Assembly: GCA_027624715.1 (NCBI GenBank)
Contig: JAQBTV010000004.1
Location: 1 to 64,000 of the forward strand
DNA from: Pseudomonadota bacterium
Lineage (GTDB): Bacteria; Pseudomonadota; Gammaproteobacteria; Burkholderiales; Eutrophovitaceae
DNA: 64,000 bases
Direction of reading: 5' to 3'
Part shown: piece after piece, positions 674-51,647 of the stretch
Position numbering within the stretch: the stretch's first letter is position 1
Layout: every line of letters begins with the position of its first letter
The notes under the pieces: model-generated
Seen by the model: the letters and a program-made list of their open reading frames with translations, nothing else
Told to the model about the DNA's origin: nothing
Databases searched by the model: none
Translations under genes and position numbers: made by a program

Positions 674-1780
674 TCAGTCCCAATTAAGAGCACCACCTGT
701 TTGATATTCAGTAACGCGTGTTTCAAAAAAGTTTTTCTCTTTTTTAAGATCAATCATCTCAGACATCCAAGGAAACGGATTATTTGCATTTTCGAAAATC
801 ATGTCTATACCAATTTGCTGACAACGTCGATTCGCAACGTAACGCAAATACTCTTTAAACATTGGAGCGTTTAATCCAAGCACACCTCTCGGCATCGTAT
901 CTTCCGCATACCGGTACTCTAACTCCACACCTTTTTTCATGAGACCTTGAATATCCTTCTTAAACTCTTCGGTCCATAGATGGGGATTTTCCTGCTTAAT
1001 TTGATTGATCATATCTATTCCAAAATTACAGTGCATTGACTCATCACGCAGAATGTATTGATATTGTTCTGCTGCACCCATCATTTTATTTTGTCTCCCT
1101 AGGGCCAGTATTTGCACGAATCCTACATAGAAAAATAAGCCCTCCATAATGCAAGCGAACACGATCAGGCTTCTCAAAAAATCTCTATCTGACTCAGGTG
1201 TTCCTGTTTTGAAATTCGGATCTGACAATACTTCAATGAATGGAATTAGGAATTGATCTTTATCTCTAATACTCTTTATCTCGTTATAAGCATTAAAGAT
1301 TTCGCTCTCATCAAGACCTAGGCTTTCAACAATATACTGATACGCATGCGTATGAATTGCCTCCTCGAAGGCCTGCCTCAATAAATATTGTCTGCATTCA
1401 GGCGCTGTGATGTGCCGGTAGGTGCCCAAGACAATATTATTCGCCGCCAAGGAATCCGCAGTCACAAAAAAACCCAGATTACGTTTTACGATAAGACGTT
1501 CATCGTCAGTCAGCCCGACAGGATCCTTCCAAGTCGCGATATCCCGGGTCATGTTGATCTCCTGTGGCATCCAATGGTTCGCGCACCCAGCCAGATACTT
1601 ATCCCAAGCCCAATTGTATTTAAAAGGAACAAGCTGGTTTACGTCTGCCGAACCATTGATGACCCGCTTATCCTCAACACGAACCCTTTTATTTGTCGCT
1701 TCAACCAATGGATCAGATTCTTCCACCACCTTTCTAACGGTATTGGTAATGGTCACTGGTGTATCTTCAAACTGGAGCAT
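674..1780 (-). CDS. nrdB: Ribonucleoside-diphosphate reductase, class Ia, beta subunit (NrdB)
   Basis: This 368-residue radical-carrying subunit pairs with NrdA to make deoxyribonucleotides aerobically. The diiron/tyrosyl pattern is visible: D109, E140-x2-H143 and Y147 in [10 protein letters not shown], and later a RDESMHC segment giving another Glu and His ligand. The start follows a clear Shine-Dalgarno (AAGGAA, 6 nt). nrdA ends 231 bp upstream on the same strand, so nrdA-nrdB probably form one transcript under the NrdR-boxed promoter near 5080. Length and motifs are ordinary for the family. The gene ends in TGA, which shows that TGA is used as a stop codon here. Confidence 0.97.
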
Positions 1781-7339: not shown

Positions 7340-7654
7340 ATGTATGCTGTAATTAAAACTGGTGGGAAGCAGTACAAAGTCGCCACTGGAGAAAAATTAA
7401 AGATTGAAACGTTGGGCGCTGAGGTTGGCGAAAATATCACGCTCGACCAAGTCCTGATGGTTGTTGACGGCGCCAACGTCTCAATAGGCACCCCCATTAT
7501 TGATGGCGCGAGTGTTGCGGCAACAGTTTTAGGCCATGGCCGCGGCAAAAAAGTTAGAATATTTAAACTGCGAAGACGAAAGCACTATAAAAGGCAGCAG
7601 GGTCATCGTCAAAATTTTACTGAGGTCGTTATCGGCGACATTACAAGCCAGTAA
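7340..7654 (+). CDS. rplU: 50S ribosomal protein L21
   Basis: This 104-residue protein has the typical start [14 protein letters not shown] and the basic C-terminal [14 protein letters not shown] segment of bL21, which binds 23S rRNA. It is followed 35 bp later by rpmA, the near-universal L21-L27 pair. Length is standard. Confidence 0.98.
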
Positions 7655-7689
7655 CCACGCGACTTTACGTTTTGAAAGGCAATTAATTT

Positions 7690-7947
7690 ATGGCACATAA
7701 AAAAGCGGGCGGTAGTTCTAGAAACGGACGCGACTCAAACGCCAAACGACTTGGCGTCAAACGCTTTGGCGGAGAACTGATCTCTGCAGGTAGCATTATC
7801 ATTCGACAACGCGGCACAGTGGTTCATCCTGGCGAGAATGTCGGTATAGGTCGAGACCACACCTTGTTTGCAAAAGTGCATGGGCACGTTTTATTCGGAA
7901 AAACCGGCCCGTTAAATAAGAAAATCGTTAGTATTGTTCCAGCGTAG
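7690..7947 (+). CDS. rpmA: 50S ribosomal protein L27
   Basis: This 85-residue protein starts [19 protein letters not shown], the conserved bL27 N-terminal arm that reaches the peptidyl transferase centre. There is no Firmicutes-type N-terminal extension needing cleavage. A strong terminator follows at once, so rplU-rpmA form a self-contained ribosomal unit. Confidence 0.98.
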
Positions 7948-32809: not shown

Positions 32810-33514
32810 ATGGCGGGGCACTGGATTGATATCGAAGCAAACGACGGTGCATCATTTAGTGGGTACCTCTCCATTCCAAGAATCGGCAAAGGACCAGGCA
32901 TTATCCTATGCCAAGAAATATTTGGGGTTAATCCGTACATCCAATCTGTAGCGGACTATTATGCTGAGGAAGGTTACGTGGTATTCGCACCGGACCTTTT
33001 CTGGCGCATTGAACCGGGCGTTCAGCTTGGCTATACCGAGAAAGACTTCGAAAGAGCCTTTGAACTCTTTGCGCAATTTGATACGGATCAAGGCATGCAT
33101 GACATCAGTGCGTCTGTTAAAGCGCTACGAGCCAAACCCGAAGTTGTGGGTCAACTTGGGGCACTCGGATTTTGTTTAGGTGGCAGGCTTGCTTACTTGG
33201 CGGCCGCTCGATCAGGTGTTGATTGCGCAGTTGCCTATTATGGCGTGACCATTGATGAATATCTGCATGAAGCAAAAAATATCAACGTCCCAATGGCCTT
33301 ACACTTTGCCGAGAACGATCAATATGCTCCTATGGCTTCGGTGACTAACATTCAATCTGCTTTTAAAGATCATATTGAGACCGAGATCTTTGTCTATCCA
33401 GGCGTTGATCACGGGTTTTCAAGAACCGAGTCTAAACACTTTCATAAACCAACAGCGCAGCTAGCTCATCAACGATCCATTGCCTTATTTCGTAAAACAA
33501 TGGGGCCGCACTAA
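32810..33514 (+). CDS. Dienelactone hydrolase family protein
   Basis: This 234-residue alpha/beta hydrolase has the DLH catalytic triad: Cys in GFCLGGRLAY, Asp in FAENDQYAP and His in YPGVDHGFSR. The QEIFGVN segment supplies the Glu that activates the Cys in this family. It may open dienelactones from modified ortho-cleavage or act on other lactones and esters; no chlorocatechol genes are near. GAGGAG lies about 7 nt before the ATG. It is a single-gene unit. Confidence 0.92.
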   Translation: MAGHWIDIEANDGASFSGYLSIPRIGKGPGIILCQEIFGVNPYIQSVADYYAEEGYVVFAPDLFWRIEPGVQLGYTEKDFERAFELFAQFDTDQGMHDISASVKALRAKPEVVGQLGALGFCLGGRLAYLAAARSGVDCAVAYYGVTIDEYLHEAKNINVPMALHFAENDQYAPMASVTNIQSAFKDHIETEIFVYPGVDHGFSRTESKHFHKPTAQLAHQRSIALFRKTMGPH

Positions 33515-43372: not shown

Positions 43373-44368
43373 TTAAACAGAAAACCTCTCCTGCATCAAA
43401 CCAATTTGCTCTCGCATATGGCCTAAATGCTCTTCCCAATATCGCTGTGATCCAAACCATGGAAAAGCGACCTGGAACGCAGGATCTTTCCATCGCTGAG
43501 CCAACCAGCCAGAGTAGTTGATCATGCGTAGCGTTCGAAGGGGCTCGATTAAGGCGATCTGTTGGTAGTCGAAGGTCATAAATTGCTCATAGCCTATTAA
43601 GACTTTCCGCAACTGCTGCGCCATAGATTCCCGATCTCCCGACAACAACATCCATAAATCCTGAACGGCCGGACCCATAACAGCATCATCCAAGTCAACA
43701 AAACTCGGGCCATCTTCCATCCACAAAATATTCCCTGGGTGGCAGTCTCCCAACAAACGAATGAAGGATAAGCCTTGTACTCCTTTTAAAGCCTCATCAA
43801 TCGCCGTTAAAGCGAGATCCACAAGATCTTCGTACGTCTTACGTAATTCAACAGGAATGAACCCTTTACTTATTATGAAGTTAACGGGATCCCTACCGAA
43901 CTGGTCCGTGCTTATAGTAGGACGATACCGGAACGATTGCGTCGCGGATACCGCATGAATACGACCGATCAATCGACCAATCCACCCCAATACAAAGTCA
44001 TCCTCTAGATTAGGCGCTCGTCCACCTTTTTTTTCAAATACGGCAAATTGAAATTGCTCAGCCTTAAAAAGAGACTCTTTATTGATCCTAATAGGAGCAA
44101 TCACCGGAAGCTCAACATCGGACAAATCAAACGTAAATCTGTGCTCCTCCAGCAATTGATTTTTGGACCACCTACCAGGACGATAAAATTTTGCGACTAC
44201 ATCGAATTCCAAATCGTCATCATAAACGCCAATTTGATAAACCCGGTTCTCGAAACTATTTAGAGGAATTAACTTTCCTGTGGTTTTCCACCCAACATGG
44301 TCAAGCGCATTAAGAATCAGGTCTGGGCCTAGACCGAAATATGGTGTCTCCTCAGCCTGAAACTTCAA
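43373..44368 (-). CDS. srkA: Stress response serine/threonine kinase SrkA (YihE)
   Basis: This 331-residue APH-like kinase has VVAKFYRPGRWS (ATP-binding Lys), the catalytic loop LLGDCHPGNILW with its Asp and Asn, and FVDLDDAVMGP as the metal-binding Asp. LNSFENRVYQIG at the N-terminus is a YihE signature. In E. coli it counters MazF-type stress death; dsbA, its usual partner, is not here. The start is TTG at 44368, matched to the family N-terminus but lacking a Shine-Dalgarno. Confidence 0.92.
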   Translation of the reverse strand: MKFQAEETPYFGLGPDLILNALDHVGWKTTGKLIPLNSFENRVYQIGVYDDDLEFDVVAKFYRPGRWSKNQLLEEHRFTFDLSDVELPVIAPIRINKESLFKAEQFQFAVFEKKGGRAPNLEDDFVLGWIGRLIGRIHAVSATQSFRYRPTISTDQFGRDPVNFIISKGFIPVELRKTYEDLVDLALTAIDEALKGVQGLSFIRLLGDCHPGNILWMEDGPSFVDLDDAVMGPAVQDLWMLLSGDRESMAQQLRKVLIGYEQFMTFDYQQIALIEPLRTLRMINYSGWLAQRWKDPAFQVAFPWFGSQRYWEEHLGHMREQIGLMQERFSV

Positions 44369-44423
44369 GGAGTAAAAACCCTAGCGGACGAAATAACAGC
44401 AACTGCAAAATCGGAAGTATTCA

Positions 44424-45107
44424 TCATCGAGAGTAGGAACCACCATTTACGTCAACAGTAGTTCCAGAAACATAAGCCGGACTTTCCGCTCCCAACCAAA
44501 AAATAGCCTCCGCGACCTCCTCTGGCAAACAAGGTCGTCCGCTATGCACACTGCTCATTACCGATTCTTTTCTGGAATCAGGTAATTGCTCATACATCAT
44601 TGTCAAAGTTGGTCCAGGTGCAACCGCATTCACAAATATATTATCTCGGCCGAGATGCGAAGCATAACTCTTTGTAAGATTTAGTAACGCCGCCTTCGTC
44701 GCGCCATACCAAAGATCAGGATGCCCGGTAAATGCCGAAACTGAACCAACCGAAACAATACGGCCACCGCCTCGAGATCTCATACCCAATGAGACAGACT
44801 CAATCAATCTCGCAGGGGCTAAAAGATTAACCTCTAGAATCTCCTGTATATGATCCTGAGGTATTAAATCCATCGGGTCACAAAATAGTACTGCTGCATT
44901 ATTAACCAACGTATCAATTGGCCCTAATTGATCTATTAAATACGGAATTTTATCGAGAGATCTCAAGTCGAATACAATACGTTCCCCAATACAGATGGCT
45001 TGGAACTCTTTATCTAGAGATAACACAATCCAACCCATCGATGAGAATTTTTTAGCGACAGCCAAACCTATGCCTCTACCAGCACCAGTGACCAATACTG
45101 TTTTCAT
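44424..45107 (-). CDS. SDR family oxidoreductase
   Basis: This 227-residue SDR is shorter than most. It has TGAGRGIG (7-14), VNNAAVLF, Ser in VGSVSAF, and YGATK. The PGPTLTMM and VSGTTVDVNGG segments complete the fold. AAAAGG before the ATG supports the start. It is preceded 38 bp upstream by an unrecognised gene on the same strand. The substrate is unknown. Confidence 0.88.
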   Translation of the reverse strand: MKTVLVTGAGRGIGLAVAKKFSSMGWIVLSLDKEFQAICIGERIVFDLRSLDKIPYLIDQLGPIDTLVNNAAVLFCDPMDLIPQDHIQEILEVNLLAPARLIESVSLGMRSRGGGRIVSVGSVSAFTGHPDLWYGATKAALLNLTKSYASHLGRDNIFVNAVAPGPTLTMMYEQLPDSRKESVMSSVHSGRPCLPEEVAEAIFWLGAESPAYVSGTTVDVNGGSYSR

Positions 45108-45145
45108 AAAAACCTTTTAATGAAAATTAAGCGCAGAAACAAACG

Positions 45146-46195
45146 TTACGTTTCGCAGTTAACATATTTCTCTTCGCCTTCAGATACTTTTAACTGGTAA
45201 CGCTGAATACCTATGTCTCTAAAAAACTGATCAATCGTCGCAAGCGCTTGATCATGTGACTCATAAGGTGCAACAGGGAAATCGTACGTCCTATCGAACG
45301 ACTCATCAAACAAAGACGATAATCGCGTCAATACTTTACCACCCGCACTTGAATCAATTGATATATCTGGCTCTCCAAATTTTAGGCGAGCATGATTGAT
45401 CGCATTGCTAGCGAACAACTGAAAACCAACTTCTCTCACTGCCCAATATCCCTCCTCTAGAGATCTGATAAGAGGTCTCGGTAGCCGAGGTAACGCCAAC
45501 ACCGAACAATCCGCCGTAGATAACTGAGCACTTACCGCCTCGGAAAATTTAATTCCCCATCTACCAATATCCCCCGCCGATTCAAAAACCGAAGGCGCAG
45601 AGGTAGGACTGAGTGCTACACCACAGAGAAATCGCAAATGAGCAGCTTCTACTCCAGCTAAAACGTCGATTGGATCATCCGGAAAATCTAACACCACTAT
45701 ATTTTTTAATTCGTCGTATTGACCAGCCAGCCTCCACGAATCAAGAGGATATTGATGCAAGGCCTCATAGTCCGTTAAACAATTAGCCAACCCAAAGTTC
45801 TTACAATGACCCAGGACACCCAGACTTTCTAAAATGCCAGTCAAGGCGGCTACATCATTCAATACGGTCGAAATAGTGTTTCTTTTCTGGGCACCAATAA
45901 CCAAAATGATCGGCATGACAAATAAATCTAATCGAAATGCACTTCCTTTTCGGTCCGCTGTTATCGCTGCGTCCGCCACCTGTCTTGCCATACGCCCAGC
46001 CAAGATAGAATTAGGATGCCAACACGCCTGTTTCACGGCATCACTCAGTCCGGAATCGACGAACGCATCAACCAATTTATACAACGGTGTTTGGTCCACA
46101 GACACGTGATCTAGAGGTGCCTTCGACGCTAAATCGTTAGCAAGAGCCATCAATTGTTCATAAGAACTCATATTTGGTATTCGACTATCGTTCAT
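45146..46195 (-). CDS. Unrecognised cytoplasmic protein
   Basis: I do not recognise this family. From ATG at 46195 it has 349 residues, mixed alpha/beta composition, no signal peptide and no clear membrane helix; FVMPIILVIGA (starting near residue 95) is the only strongly hydrophobic strand, and VVLDFPDDPIDVLAG and CSVLALPRLPRPLIRS are the most distinctive segments. The frame stays open to a TTG at 46378, but that would run antisense into the 5' end of acpH. A perfect TATAAT (minus, 46235-46230) lies 35 bp before 46195, which supports the shorter form. The SDR gene follows after 38 bp. Confidence 0.7.
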   Translation of the reverse strand: MNDSRIPNMSSYEQLMALANDLASKAPLDHVSVDQTPLYKLVDAFVDSGLSDAVKQACWHPNSILAGRMARQVADAAITADRKGSAFRLDLFVMPIILVIGAQKRNTISTVLNDVAALTGILESLGVLGHCKNFGLANCLTDYEALHQYPLDSWRLAGQYDELKNIVVLDFPDDPIDVLAGVEAAHLRFLCGVALSPTSAPSVFESAGDIGRWGIKFSEAVSAQLSTADCSVLALPRLPRPLIRSLEEGYWAVREVGFQLFASNAINHARLKFGEPDISIDSSAGGKVLTRLSSLFDESFDRTYDFPVAPYESHDQALATIDQFFRDIGIQRYQLKVSEGEEKYVNCET

Positions 46196-46229
46196 TAAAG
46201 GTAGATTTTCCTTTTGGTGTGTAGCCCTG

Positions 46230-46235
46230 ATTATA
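46230..46235 (-). promoter_or_regulatory. -10 element before the unrecognised gene
   Basis: TATAAT on the minus strand, followed by ATG at 46195 about 27 nt after the expected start site. No good -35 is present at 16-18 bp. Confidence 0.35.
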
Positions 46236-46344
46236 ACGACTGCATCTTCAGATAAAATCATAGTGGGCTCAAAGTAAGCACTATACTTGTGTTGCGACCA
46301 TGACAAATAAGACAGTAAATCTTTAGGTAAGAAGTATATTAGCC

Positions 46345-46443
46345 GTGAATTACCTCGCACATCTTTTTTTATCCCCAAATGATGAGGACTGACAACTAGG
46401 CAGCATCCTTGGGGCCTTTGTAAACGGTCCTATAGATGAGCGG
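46345..46443 (+). pseudogene. acpH: 5' part of acpH, interrupted by an in-frame TGA
   Basis: GTG at 46345 opens a frame reading MNYLAHLFLSPNDED, then TGA (46390-46392, codon 16), then QLGSILGAFVNGPIDER, continuing without a shift into the intact frame at 46444. MNxLAHLxL and the GxxLxxFVxG block are the conserved start of AcpH, so the coding sequence clearly once ran through. A single change (CGA or TGG to TGA) would explain it. Where E. coli AcpH has Asp in LADFV, this copy has Ala. A nonsense mutation, a sequencing error or readthrough could all account for it. Confidence 0.75.
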
Positions 46444-46962
46444 ATGCTAGCGGTTAACCACTATAACGTCGTTAATGGGATCAAACTTCACAGGAAAATT
46501 GATCTTTTTTCGGACCAGTCAGACATTTTCAGGAAAAGCTGCAAAAGCATTAAGCCCGAGCAAAGACGATTTTCTCGGATACTGATCGATATGTATTTCG
46601 ATCATATTCCTGCTAGGCACTGGTCGCAGTTACATTCCAAAAAATTGATAGATTTCAGCCAACACATTTACCAAGTAGTCCTCAAAGATCGACCTGAAAA
46701 TACACAAAATTTTAGAAAAGTCTCTCGATTAATTGTTGAACAAGACTGGTTCAGAACATACACATCAATAGATGGTATTGCTCAGCAAATCGAGCGATTG
46801 GGTTCTAGGTTAAAGCGAGGAAACGCACTTTTAGGCGGCGCGATAGATCTCGTGAGGCACCTGAACTCATTTGAGTTAGATTTTTTTCAGTTCATTGAAG
46901 AGGCCGAAGAGTTCTCAGATGATTACGCGAAAAAACTCACATTCAACAACGATAAAGCATAG
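46444..46962 (+). CDS. acpH: Acyl carrier protein phosphodiesterase AcpH (N-terminally truncated frame)
   Basis: The intact frame gives 172 residues. GIKLHRKIDLFSD, IDMYFDHIPARHWSQL and WFRTYTSIDGI match AcpH, which removes the phosphopantetheine arm from acyl carrier protein and is an atypical HD-type phosphodiesterase. The full gene should start about 33 codons upstream, at GTG 46345, but a TGA interrupts it (separate entry). Translation could restart at ATG 46444, without the conserved N-terminal helix, which would probably be inactive. It converges with the cupin gene 7 bp away. Confidence 0.82.
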   Translation: MLAVNHYNVVNGIKLHRKIDLFSDQSDIFRKSCKSIKPEQRRFSRILIDMYFDHIPARHWSQLHSKKLIDFSQHIYQVVLKDRPENTQNFRKVSRLIVEQDWFRTYTSIDGIAQQIERLGSRLKRGNALLGGAIDLVRHLNSFELDFFQFIEEAEEFSDDYAKKLTFNNDKA

Positions 46963-46969
46963 CTAAAAA

Positions 46970-47350
46970 TTAACTCTCCATTGTCTCAAAGACCCCTGGC
47001 ATAACAATCTCTATCAACTCTAAGTCGTCACTATGTTCGATCTCTTTATGATGAATCCCGGGCGGCTGATGTACACATGTTCCAGCCGTTAACCGCTTTC
47101 GTCCGACCCCCGCATAATCGAACTCTACCCAACCTTTTAAAATGTAGATCATTTGAAATGTGACATCATGATAATGTTGGCGAGGGACTGTATGCTCGCC
47201 GGGAACCGCTCGAATAACGTGCGCAACAACAGCCCCATTGGTCGCCTCTTTTATGCCTAAATCCCTGTACTCAAAAAAAGGGCGCAAACCATCTTTTTTG
47301 AATTCTCTGTCATCTAAATGATTACAAGAAAATTTCTTTTTATCGCTCAT
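46970..47350 (-). CDS. Cupin domain-containing protein
   Basis: From ATG at 47350 (GGGGGG just upstream) this is a single-domain cupin of 126 residues. Motif 1 is degenerate (PRQHYHDVTFQMIYILKGWVEF) and motif 2 is TCVHQPPGIHH. Two or three His could bind a metal. Such small cupins are often dioxygenases, isomerases or sugar-binding regulators; I cannot say which. The frame has another ATG seven codons up. It follows DUF599 by 36 bp on the same strand and may be co-transcribed. Confidence 0.85.
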   Translation of the reverse strand: MSDKKKFSCNHLDDREFKKDGLRPFFEYRDLGIKEATNGAVVAHVIRAVPGEHTVPRQHYHDVTFQMIYILKGWVEFDYAGVGRKRLTAGTCVHQPPGIHHKEIEHSDDLELIEIVMPGVFETMES

Positions 47351-47386
47351 AATCCCCCCATTAAATGTCAAGTCGCTGCGACTTAC

Positions 47387-48106
47387 TTAATTACATGAGC
47401 CTTTACTTAAATCATTTCCAAGCATTGCTTTTAACGCATCAGACTTAAATTCTCGATGGTAAAGAATGCCTATCACCATCATGTTAGACAAAATAAAGAG
47501 CCAGGCATTTAAAAACCAAGGCAAGACTGATAGGCCAAAGTAATAAGCACGCAATCCGTCGTTAAAGGTATTAGAAGCAATACTCGCCATTTTCGAGCCA
47601 CGCTGAATGAATTGTTCGTGCACATCAGGTGTGGCATCAGTATCCGGTGCTGCGCCCACCATTACCGAACAAAAAAAATGCTGCCTTAGAGACCAGGTAA
47701 ACTTAAAGAAAGCATATATAAATATAGCGAGCAGTAATACTATTTTACAGTTCCATGCCAAGGTGTCGTTCTCAACCGCAAATGGCAAATCAGCAAGAAT
47801 CATTATCACTCGGTCGGCGTTACCCAATAGCGCCAGTAGCGCACCCAAGATCAAAATAGTCGTTGAAGCAAAAAACGTAGCGCCATTTGCTAAGGTGAGA
47901 ATAATGTTTGCATCAACGATCTTTAGATCTCTCCGAATAGTCCCGCGCCACCATTGCTCTCGGTAACGCACCATAACACTCATCAAACTAGGCATTCCCT
48001 TGTCAGCAGCACGCCTTGCGAATTTGGCATAGCCAACCCAACCGAAATAGAATATGGCAATTGCCAAATAGTCAATGACGGTAAACGATGTGTTATCCAT
48101 TGTCAT
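47387..48106 (-). CDS. DUF599 family membrane protein
   Basis: This 239-residue inner-membrane protein has four predicted helices (about 9-25, 68-92, 116-136, and 195-217). The RYREQWW...NIILTLANGATFFAST region is the DUF599 signature. The function is unknown. It diverges from the crotonase gene across 122 bp and is followed by the cupin gene. Confidence 0.87.
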   Translation of the reverse strand: MTMDNTSFTVIDYLAIAIFYFGWVGYAKFARRAADKGMPSLMSVMVRYREQWWRGTIRRDLKIVDANIILTLANGATFFASTTILILGALLALLGNADRVIMILADLPFAVENDTLAWNCKIVLLLAIFIYAFFKFTWSLRQHFFCSVMVGAAPDTDATPDVHEQFIQRGSKMASIASNTFNDGLRAYYFGLSVLPWFLNAWLFILSNMMVIGILYHREFKSDALKAMLGNDLSKGSCN

Positions 48107-48228
48107 AAAAGGTTGCGATCCGTTGTCGTGTCATCGTATAACATTGAAAACAATGCTCTTCATAATTTAATTTGATGGAATTATTTACGTTATACTACTC
48201 TAAAAATGCGTGTCAAAAAGGGCTTAAT

Positions 48229-49038
48229 ATGACTGTTACAAACACGGCGAAAGTAAACGTCAACGAAACCGTATTGCTTAGAACAGATGAAGGTGGCGTT
48301 GCCACACTGAGACTTAACCGCCCAAAAGCATACAACGCGCTCTCTGAGGAACTTCTGGCAACACTTCAAATGCAATTAGATACCATCAGCAATGATTCAT
48401 CAGTTCGAGTCGTCATCATTGAGGGGAGCGGAGACGCATTTTGTGCTGGCCATGACCTTAAACAAATGCGGGCAAACCGAAGCCAAGAGTATTATGACGC
48501 GCTGTTCAAAACCTGCAGTCAATTCATGCTCACCCTAATGAGGATCCCTCAACCTGTCATCGCTAAAGTACATGGCATTGCGACAGCTGCTGGCTGTCAA
48601 CTCGTTGGGGCCTGCGATCTTGCTATTGCATCAGAAGAAGCGAAATTTGCAACTTCTGGAGTTAATTACGGCTTATTTTGTTCAACACCGGCAGTTGCCG
48701 TATCTCGAAACATTCATCGGAAAAAAGCTGCAGAATTACTATTTACTGGTGAATTCATTGACGCGCGTACCGCAGAGTCACTCGGACTAATCAACAAAGC
48801 TGTTCCTGCAAAACAACTGAATGCCGAAGTGCTCCAGATGGCTAATTTAATTATTCGCAAGTCGGCGGTTGCCGTTTCAACGGGAAAACGAATGCTCTAT
48901 CGGCAAATTGAAATGGGCATCGATGACGCCTACAAATTCGCGGCCGAGACTATGGCCTGCAATATGATGGCTCTTGATGTCAGCGAAGGGATAGATGCAT
49001 TTATTGAAAAAAGGTCGGCAACCTGGAAGCATGTGTAA
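48229..49038 (+). CDS. Enoyl-CoA hydratase
   Basis: This crotonase has 269 residues from the preferred ATG (AAGGG 6-7 nt upstream). LRLNRPKAYNALS, the oxyanion-hole segment DAFCAGHDLKQM and GIATAAGCQLVGACDLAIA are typical; the second catalytic position reads VNYGLFCSTPAVAV. It resembles the enoyl-CoA hydratase domain-containing protein 3-like group, in which the usual catalytic Glu is replaced. The frame extends 19 codons further up without a better start. It converges with the phosphatidyltransferase gene. Confidence 0.9.
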   Translation: MTVTNTAKVNVNETVLLRTDEGGVATLRLNRPKAYNALSEELLATLQMQLDTISNDSSVRVVIIEGSGDAFCAGHDLKQMRANRSQEYYDALFKTCSQFMLTLMRIPQPVIAKVHGIATAAGCQLVGACDLAIASEEAKFATSGVNYGLFCSTPAVAVSRNIHRKKAAELLFTGEFIDARTAESLGLINKAVPAKQLNAEVLQMANLIIRKSAVAVSTGKRMLYRQIEMGIDDAYKFAAETMACNMMALDVSEGIDAFIEKRSATWKHV

Positions 49039-49081
49039 GTCTAAGCTACCCTTTGATTGCCCAAATAACAAGAAGATAAAA

Positions 49082-49642
49082 CTACATAGATGCTGCTGAT
49101 GTGGCGCGACCATTAAGGCGAACACGCCGCCACTCGACAAAATATACGACGGTAGAAATAGATAAAGTTACTAATAATGCTGGTAGCATCACGTCTAGGA
49201 TTAAATCGCCCACGAATAATTTGGCCTCTTGCGCAATAGCAAGTGCAATAGCTAGAAACGCGAGTGCCGCATGTGACTTACCCCATAGATTAGGTAACAC
49301 TCGAATATCTCTTAATGTGCTGTCAAGCAGTCCAACACTCAGCATCACAATGTCTCTTAAAACTAGAGGAATGCCAATCCACAGAGGTAATAACCCGTCC
49401 CAGGCTAAGATCGATGCACAGGTAATGACCAACAACTTATCGGCAACAGGATCCAGTATCGTTCCTGCCGTTGTGATTGCATTGAATCGACGAGCAATAT
49501 ACCCATCCAAACCGTCCGAAAAGCTTAAAACTAAAAAAAACCAAAAAGCCAGTTGATAGTCGTGGCTTGACAATATGATTGCCAAAAACGGAACTGACAA
49601 CAATCGACCAAGGGTAATGGTATTCGGAAGCACACTAATCAT
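49082..49642 (-). CDS. CDP-alcohol phosphatidyltransferase (PgsA-like)
   Basis: This integral membrane enzyme has 186 residues from ATG 49642 (TTAGGAG 5-6 nt upstream). The diagnostic motif DG-x2-AR-x8-G-x3-D-x3-D is complete (DGYIARR...AGTILDPVADK). Five or six hydrophobic helices follow the family pattern. The N-terminus NTITLGRLLSVPFL fits phosphatidylglycerophosphate synthases, so it may make PGP from CDP-DAG and glycerol-3-phosphate; some bacteria have a second paralogue, so I leave the symbol open. Confidence 0.9.
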   Translation of the reverse strand: MISVLPNTITLGRLLSVPFLAIILSSHDYQLAFWFFLVLSFSDGLDGYIARRFNAITTAGTILDPVADKLLVITCASILAWDGLLPLWIGIPLVLRDIVMLSVGLLDSTLRDIRVLPNLWGKSHAALAFLAIALAIAQEAKLFVGDLILDVMLPALLVTLSISTVVYFVEWRRVRLNGRATSAASM

Positions 49643-49733
49643 CGCGACTCCTAACCAATAACTACATAACACCGCTAAATGAGAGCCCTTTAACCACCCT
49701 CGCTCTGAAATGTATCTTCAGAACGTCATGGAA

Positions 49734-51647
49734 TCAAGTACTTTGAGGCAGACTCAAGATTAAATTATTCAATTTGACGATAAACGCCGCAGGATCCTCA
49801 AGTGAGCCGCCATCAGCCAACATAGCCTGATCAAAGATAATTGAGCTCCAGTCCGAAAAGCGGGCGACTTCTTTCTCGGCCGCCATTTTCTTCACAATCG
49901 GATGATGAATATTAATTTCCAGAATCGGTTCAATTAAAGGCGATTCTTGTCCTGCAGCCTTCAACATTCTTGAAAGATTCATACTCATTTCATCCTCATC
50001 AGATACCAAACATGAAGGAGAATCGACTAGTCGAGTCGACACACGAACATCTTTGACTTTCCCCGCTAACGCCTCCTTAATACGCTTCACTAAGTCACCA
50101 CCGTCAGCATCTACCTCATCAGACTTACCATCAAGTTTCTTATCATCAATTGGACCTAAATCAAGAGAACCTTTAGCTACTGAGACGAGTTTTTTTTCAT
50201 CGAACTCTTGGAGATTAGAGACTACCCACTCATCAACCCGGTCAGAGAGCAAAAGAACCTCAATATCTTTTTTCTTAAATATTTCCAGATGAGGACTTGA
50301 TTTCGCCGCAGCATGCGTCTCAGCGGTAATGTAGTAGATCTTATCCTGCCCCTCTTTCATACGTGCAATATAATCACTTAGGGTAACAACTTCACCCTTA
50401 TCAATTTGAGCAGTCGTTGAGAATCGAAGTAACTTAGCAATGCGCTCTTTATTGCTCCAATCTTCCCCAAGACCTTCTTTGAGAACGCGACCAAATTCTT
50501 TCCAAAATTCCTTAAATTTATCCTGTTGATTTTCAGCCATATCCTCAAGCATGGCCAGAACTCGATTAATACACCCCTTACGAATGGCATCAACATCTCT
50601 AGATTCTTGCAATATTTCCCTGGAAACATTTAACGGTAGATCTGAGGAATCTACAACACCTCTGACGAAACGAAGATACCCAGGTAATAACTGCTCTGCA
50701 TCCTCCATAATAAATACACGGCGAACATAGAGCTTTAACCCTCGTCTATGATCCCTGTTCCAGAGGTCAAAAGGAGCTTTACTCGGAAGATACAACAAGT
50801 GGGTATATTCACTTTTCCCCTCAACTCGAGCATGAGCCCATGCTAACGGCTTCTCAAAATTGTGAGAGATATGCTTGTAAAAATCCTCATATTGCTCATC
50901 AGTTACATCGGTTTTCGGTCGAGCCCATATCGCTGATGCTTGATTAATTTGTTCAGATTCATTCTGAAGAACGTACTTATTTTCTTTGGCATCCCATTCT
51001 TCTTTAGGCATAAAAATAGGGAGATTAATATGGTCTGAGTAACGCTGAGCAATTGTTTTTAGGCGATACCCTTCCAGCAAATCGTCTTCATCCGCCCTCA
51101 AATGCAGAATAACTTGTGTGCCTCGACTCAGCTTGGACGTACTTTCGACCGTGAACTCCCCCTTACCCTCAGACTCCCAGAGCACCGATTCAGACTCCTC
51201 CAATCCAATCCGTCTAGAAATAAGCGTCACCTTATCTGCGACAATAAAGGAGGAATAAAAACCGACTCCAAATTGCCCAATAAGCGTAGCATCTTGAGCC
51301 TGATCTCCCGTGAGCTTACTGAAAAACTCTTTAGTTCCGGATTTTGCAATCGTCCCGATGTTCTGTATCACTTCCTCTCGAGACATTCCGATCCCGTTGT
51401 CCGAGATAGAAATAGTTCTATTTTCACGATCAACCGAGATGTCAATCTTAAGAACTACATCGTCACCCATGAGCGAAGCATCTGTGAGTGACTCAAATCT
51501 GAGTTTATCGCAAGCGTCAGAAGCATTTGAAATCAACTCTCTTAGAAAAATTTCCTTGTTTGAATACAAGGAATGAATCATCAATTTAAGTAATTGGCTT
51601 ACTTCCGTTTGAAACCCGAGCGTCTCTTTAGCAGCAGCATCTGACAT
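49734..51647 (-). CDS. htpG: Chaperone HtpG (Hsp90)
   Basis: This 637-residue bacterial Hsp90 has an N-terminal GHKL ATPase ([31 protein letters not shown]), a middle domain ([13 protein letters not shown]) and a C-terminal dimerisation domain. It lacks the eukaryotic MEEVD tail. A near-consensus heat-shock promoter lies about 50-75 bp upstream of the start. Length and motifs are normal; it stands alone downstream of the nuo operon. Confidence 0.97.

Follow-up and report, generated by a model that had tools for sequence, protein, structure and literature searches.

A premature TGA very probably makes acpH a recently inactivated gene in a Pseudomonadota genome

In described bacterial nonsense pseudogenes, as in the acpH gene considered here, a single-copy gene carries one premature stop while its sister orthologues are intact; conserved residues have been lost, and a relative has lost the gene separately. 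A second point of reference is the AcpH / ACP_PD family itself (PF04336), which serves to recycle the carrier protein of fatty-acid synthesis and which our copy resembles in sequence, in length and in most conserved residues. The introduction of one research article (PMC8557913) states that mutations of the metal-binding residues of AcpH significantly reduce its activity, and that AcpH has been reported as not essential in E. coli. The third is UGA recoding (selenocysteine, codes in which UGA means Trp, and leaky UGA), with which our locus has in common an in-frame UGA followed by an open frame.

The source genome is a 1.77-Mb draft (97% complete, 32 contigs), and our window, meaning the whole 64,000-nucleotide stretch that was analysed, is the start of its 170-kb contig C4. 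A preliminary description of this window offered three options for a TGA inside acpH: a fresh nonsense mutation, a base error or a recoded stop. For family comparisons we used 77 AcpH homologues (78 loci submitted) with frames open for at least 110 residues, a set in which broken copies are under-counted. The features of the locus are as follows.

46345-46962, plus strand: acpH (ACP phosphodiesterase / ACP hydrolase, PF04336), very probably a pseudogene, from GTG to TAG, broken at codon 16
46390-46392, plus strand: in-frame TGA of acpH, codon 16; TGG (Trp) in all six intact congeners
46414-46416, plus strand: acpH codon 24, GCC (Ala); Asp in 74 of the 77 homologues and in each of the six intact congeners
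46609-46611, plus strand: acpH codon 89, CCT (Pro), two residues past D86-H87; Leu in all 77 homologues, Leu or Ile in the six congeners
46444-46962, plus strand: 172-aa open reading frame from the first ATG 3' of the TGA, without the conserved N-terminus (H6 and residue 24 included)

Translated from 46345, the frame reads V N Y L A H L F L S P N D E D, meets the TGA, goes on as Q L G S I L G A F V N G, and remains open until the TAG at 46960-46962. The profile match to PF04336 exceeds the family cut-off, and the part 3' of the TGA matches Pfam ACP_PD with E = 3.6e-38; translation and Pfam thus agree with the description that the AcpH N-terminus runs in frame from the GTG past the stop. Searched with the Pfam ACP_PD profile, the whole genome gave a single copy above cut-off, at C4:46348-46902 with one TGA inside, and no second copy. 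The 15 codons ahead of the TGA encode the conserved N-terminus of the family (N2 in 77/77 homologues, L4 and H6 each in 76/77, L9 in 73/77, A5 in 68/77), and the AcpH proteins of six congeners can be aligned over the site position by position. Because of these two observations, we ruled out that the TGA is an artefact of a misplaced start. The gene reads in one frame on both sides of the TGA, in line with the claim that no frameshift is needed. When we searched for a solved AcpH structure through a congener's AcpH, only weak matches were returned (best E 0.36).

Our genus sample comprises nine genomes including the source genome, and acpH has a DNA match in all nine. Six of the eight others (G001, G002, G003, G004, G006 and G007) have an intact gene, and all six begin with ATG, have TGG as codon 16 and encode Asp at position 24. 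Support for the TGG comes from several independent sequencing projects, fewer than six, as two bins seem to be from one project. A premature in-frame stop against six of six intact orthologues is what the comparison with sister genomes was expected to reveal if the nonsense change were new, and of the three options it favours this one. A point mutation would have turned the TGG codon of Trp-16 into the stop TGA, and the native start would then yield a peptide of 15 residues. Position 16 varies across the family, with Leu in 38 of the 77 homologues, so Trp-16 is a feature of the genus rather than a family-wide residue. The GTG start of the window copy, as opposed to ATG in the congeners, says little, because in the wider family the stop-to-stop frame opens with Val or Leu in 26 of the 77 homologues, as would be expected of GTG or TTG starts.

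Compared with G004, the window acpH has no indel in 615 bases. The break therefore looks recent; the gene cannot have been inactive for long, and may still be under some constraint. In G005 a contig end falls inside acpH. In G008 the gene carries several indels and in-frame stops, lesions unlike those of the window copy, and it has none of the window copy's TGA-16, D24A, K27N and L89P; at the codon-16 point it has the Trp letters, but frameshifted. From their sequences, then, the two losses look independent, and the genus would count at least two separate breaks of acpH. Outside the genus, in the same-family genome G015, the acpH match falls into two pieces (L022 and L026), one with a TGA inside, possibly a broken copy.

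The neighbourhood of acpH shows a local mosaic among the relatives. Across positions 43373-51647 of the window, compared with L114, L115 and L116, G004 shows about 94-96% DNA identity to G008 in four genes (the APH-type gene, the DUF599 gene, the enoyl-CoA hydratase gene and the gene at 49734-51647). In the SDR gene, the gene at 45146 and acpH, G004 is 91-93% identical to G001 and 74-86% to G008. This pattern suggests homologous recombination around acpH in one of the G004, G008 or G001 lineages. The gene at 45146-46195 (minus strand) encodes a 349-aa protein present in each of the eight genus members compared, the window among them; it has no Pfam match, and a longer reading of its frame has no Pfam or NCBIfam match. 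The cupin gene adjoining acpH (window 46970-47350) appears broken in G004 (L114; 66.9% identity, two stops in the alignment), and its orthologues in G001, G002 and G008 are 80-87% identical with no stops.

Beyond the stop, the window AcpH has lost residues that the family keeps. The Asp-to-Ala change in the LGDF/LADF motif, pointed out in the preliminary description, is real and lies at residue 24, which is Asp in 74, Asn in two and Glu in one of the 77 homologues. Residue 89 is Leu in every homologue and Pro here; residue 120 is Pro in 72 of 77 and Thr here; at residue 27, Asn here, 54 homologues have Lys and 12 have Arg. A near-invariant set of His and Asp residues (H6, D24, H49, D53, D82, D86 and H87), which we take to be the metal or active-site set, is otherwise retained, D24 alone being replaced. 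That residue 24 is an active-site or metal residue is our assumption, from its conservation and from a 2007 mutagenesis study that reportedly addressed AcpH active-site residues. The rest of the frame is as yet unbroken by indels but carries D24A, L89P and P120T at rarely or never changed residues with a presumed functional role. A full-length read-through product is therefore probably inactive, as judged from sequence, and replacements at family-conserved residues suggest that acpH was probably dispensable in this genome. We infer the absence of an active enzyme and the order of these changes.

The same replacements bear on the hint of relaxed selection that had been drawn from residue 24: K27N, L89P and P120T strengthen it, and raised dN/dS adds to it only weakly. 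We used a custom codon model with the window TGA masked, testing seven branches per gene (p values uncorrected), on tree topologies picked by likelihood from a short list. Without G008, the window acpH branch had an omega of 0.53 against a background of 0.15 (p 0.013; against omega = 1, p 0.41). With G008 included (lesions masked, 188 of 205 codons usable; the three topologies tried lie within 3 log units of one another), it was 0.53 against 0.145 (p 0.002; against 1, p 0.21). The G008 branch had an omega of 0.30, with omega = 1 rejected, and the stem omega of 12 in this model is uninformative, as equality to background was not rejected (p 0.23). Omega was likewise raised on the branch of the intact G007 acpH (0.39, p 0.035), where a value of 1 was not rejected (p 0.09). 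It was raised, too, on the source-genome branch in four of six neighbouring, functional-looking genes (DUF599 gene, p 0.001; 49734-51647 gene, p 0.0004; enoyl-CoA hydratase gene, p 0.016; APH-type gene, p 0.049), with omega = 1 rejected in three of the four. Given these raised values in four neighbours and in an intact acpH, dN/dS alone is weak. With the TGA masked, the window acpH has private changes at nine of 111 otherwise invariant columns, eight of them real because one is only the start codon, GTG, translated as Met; the other six copies each have one to six at 103-108 columns. In three neighbour genes the source genome has 9-10 private changes at 177-228 columns.

Could the TGA instead have been introduced by base calling or assembly, acpH being otherwise open? 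The assembly is a draft in 32 contigs, one base separates TGA from the congeners' TGG, and acpH is free of indels elsewhere, all of which would fit such an error. To set against this we have a survey of C4 with 273 ORFs from contigs of G002 and G006, in which 249 best matches at 50% identity or more cover about 149 kb (some of these ORFs match the same gene, and some short ones may be spurious). Sorting the stops by inspection, we came across a lone deep-internal stop in no conserved gene but acpH; the remaining stops lay ahead of likely starts, near gene ends, or clustered in three loci (a PagL-like gene at about 129.8-130.2 kb, and short ORFs at 7496-7802 and 117641-117895, both without a Pfam match). 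An error would also have to fall in the same single gene that has lost D24 and L89. We thus consider an error unlikely, and infer that the organism itself carries the TGA.

Two loci on C4 came up alongside. The PagL-like (lipid A 3-O-deacylase) gene lies outside the window at about 129840-130240 (minus strand, L111), with TGA, TAG and TAA in frame at 50% identity; G002 and G006 have it as an open frame of 154 aa (Pfam was run on the G002 copy), and the sequence of the source copy makes it probably a second pseudogene on the contig. The gene at 32810-33514, presumably dienelactone hydrolase-like, gave the impression of truncation in the survey, which we rejected: the frame is unbroken, and it is the relative's ORF that extends further.

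The survey also speaks to the reading of TGA in this genome. On contig C4, about one-tenth of the genome, 627 codons aligned to a relative's Trp: 601 are TGG, 24 are other sense codons and two are TGA, one being that of acpH and the other (139827) lying at residue 4 of a relative's ORF, upstream of a Met that is the likelier start. Among 124 ortholog-supported gene ends on the same contig, 38 are TGA, 53 TAA and 33 TAG. RF2 is present in the genome, and nrdB (674-1780, minus strand) terminates in TGA, as had been said. A general reassignment of TGA to Trp is therefore ruled out, in agreement with the earlier claim. Selenocysteine was rejected as well, by Trp at the site in congeners and by the lack of a SelB match above cut-off (best 183.1 bits against 242.25).

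This leaves read-through restricted to acpH, by a near-cognate tRNA-Trp at a leaky UGA-C or by recoding, which would give little full-length AcpH. Near-cognate read-through of UGA inserts Trp, and UGA-C is a leaky context; our TGA stands at a Trp codon, is followed by C, and has an open frame 3' of it. Folding of the 50 nucleotides 3' of the TGA is slightly more favourable than that of shuffled sequence (z -2.35, equalled by 4 of 200 shuffles), but the two 100-nucleotide folds are unremarkable (z -1.32 and -1.27, equalled by 20 and 19 of 200). A scan of 45500-47500 with Rfam yielded one match, on the opposite strand and at chance level (18.3 bits, the gathering score being 36), and we found no tRNA genes in the 64-kb window. 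No congener that is readable at the site has a stop there, and the product would be without D24 and with Pro at 89, so that there is no evident selective reason for read-through. Nothing speaks for it beyond the replaced Trp, the UGA-C and the weak 50-nucleotide stem. We regard read-through as highly improbable, and gene-specific recoding of this TGA as very unlikely. It is tempting to speculate that the stop is real but leaky and that traces of a catalytically dead, full-length AcpH are kept for a non-enzymatic role such as ACP binding. This would explain an indel-free frame despite a changed near-invariant Asp, and we give it the slightest of probabilities.

Translation could also restart at the ATG at 46444, where a 172-aa ORF does exist, to give a shortened protein with some function. 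Such a protein would be missing the N-terminal 33 residues, including the near-invariant N2, L4, H6 and G19 as well as position 24, and by eye there is no clear ribosome-binding site; we find this scarcely credible.

It seems far more likely that acpH here is a recently inactivated gene, a fresh nonsense pseudogene. In the simplest account, the nonsense mutation would have struck a gene that was already at liberty to decay. We hold this to be very probable, mainly on account of the congeners' TGG and of the family residues that have been lost. Ordinary gene decay, rather than unusual decoding, is the most likely account of this case. A possible recoding case is thereby removed, which matters little in itself; automatic annotation could nevertheless list the truncated 172-aa AcpH as a gene.

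Compared with other bacterial nonsense pseudogenes, this acpH is at an early stage, with one disabling stop and no indel. It differs from the AcpH / ACP_PD family in its interruption at codon 16 and in D24A and L89P. Unlike genes with recoded UGA, it has a UGA that is absent from its congeners, in a genome without SelB above cut-off and on a contig where TGA is a stop, and its AcpH has lost conserved residues.
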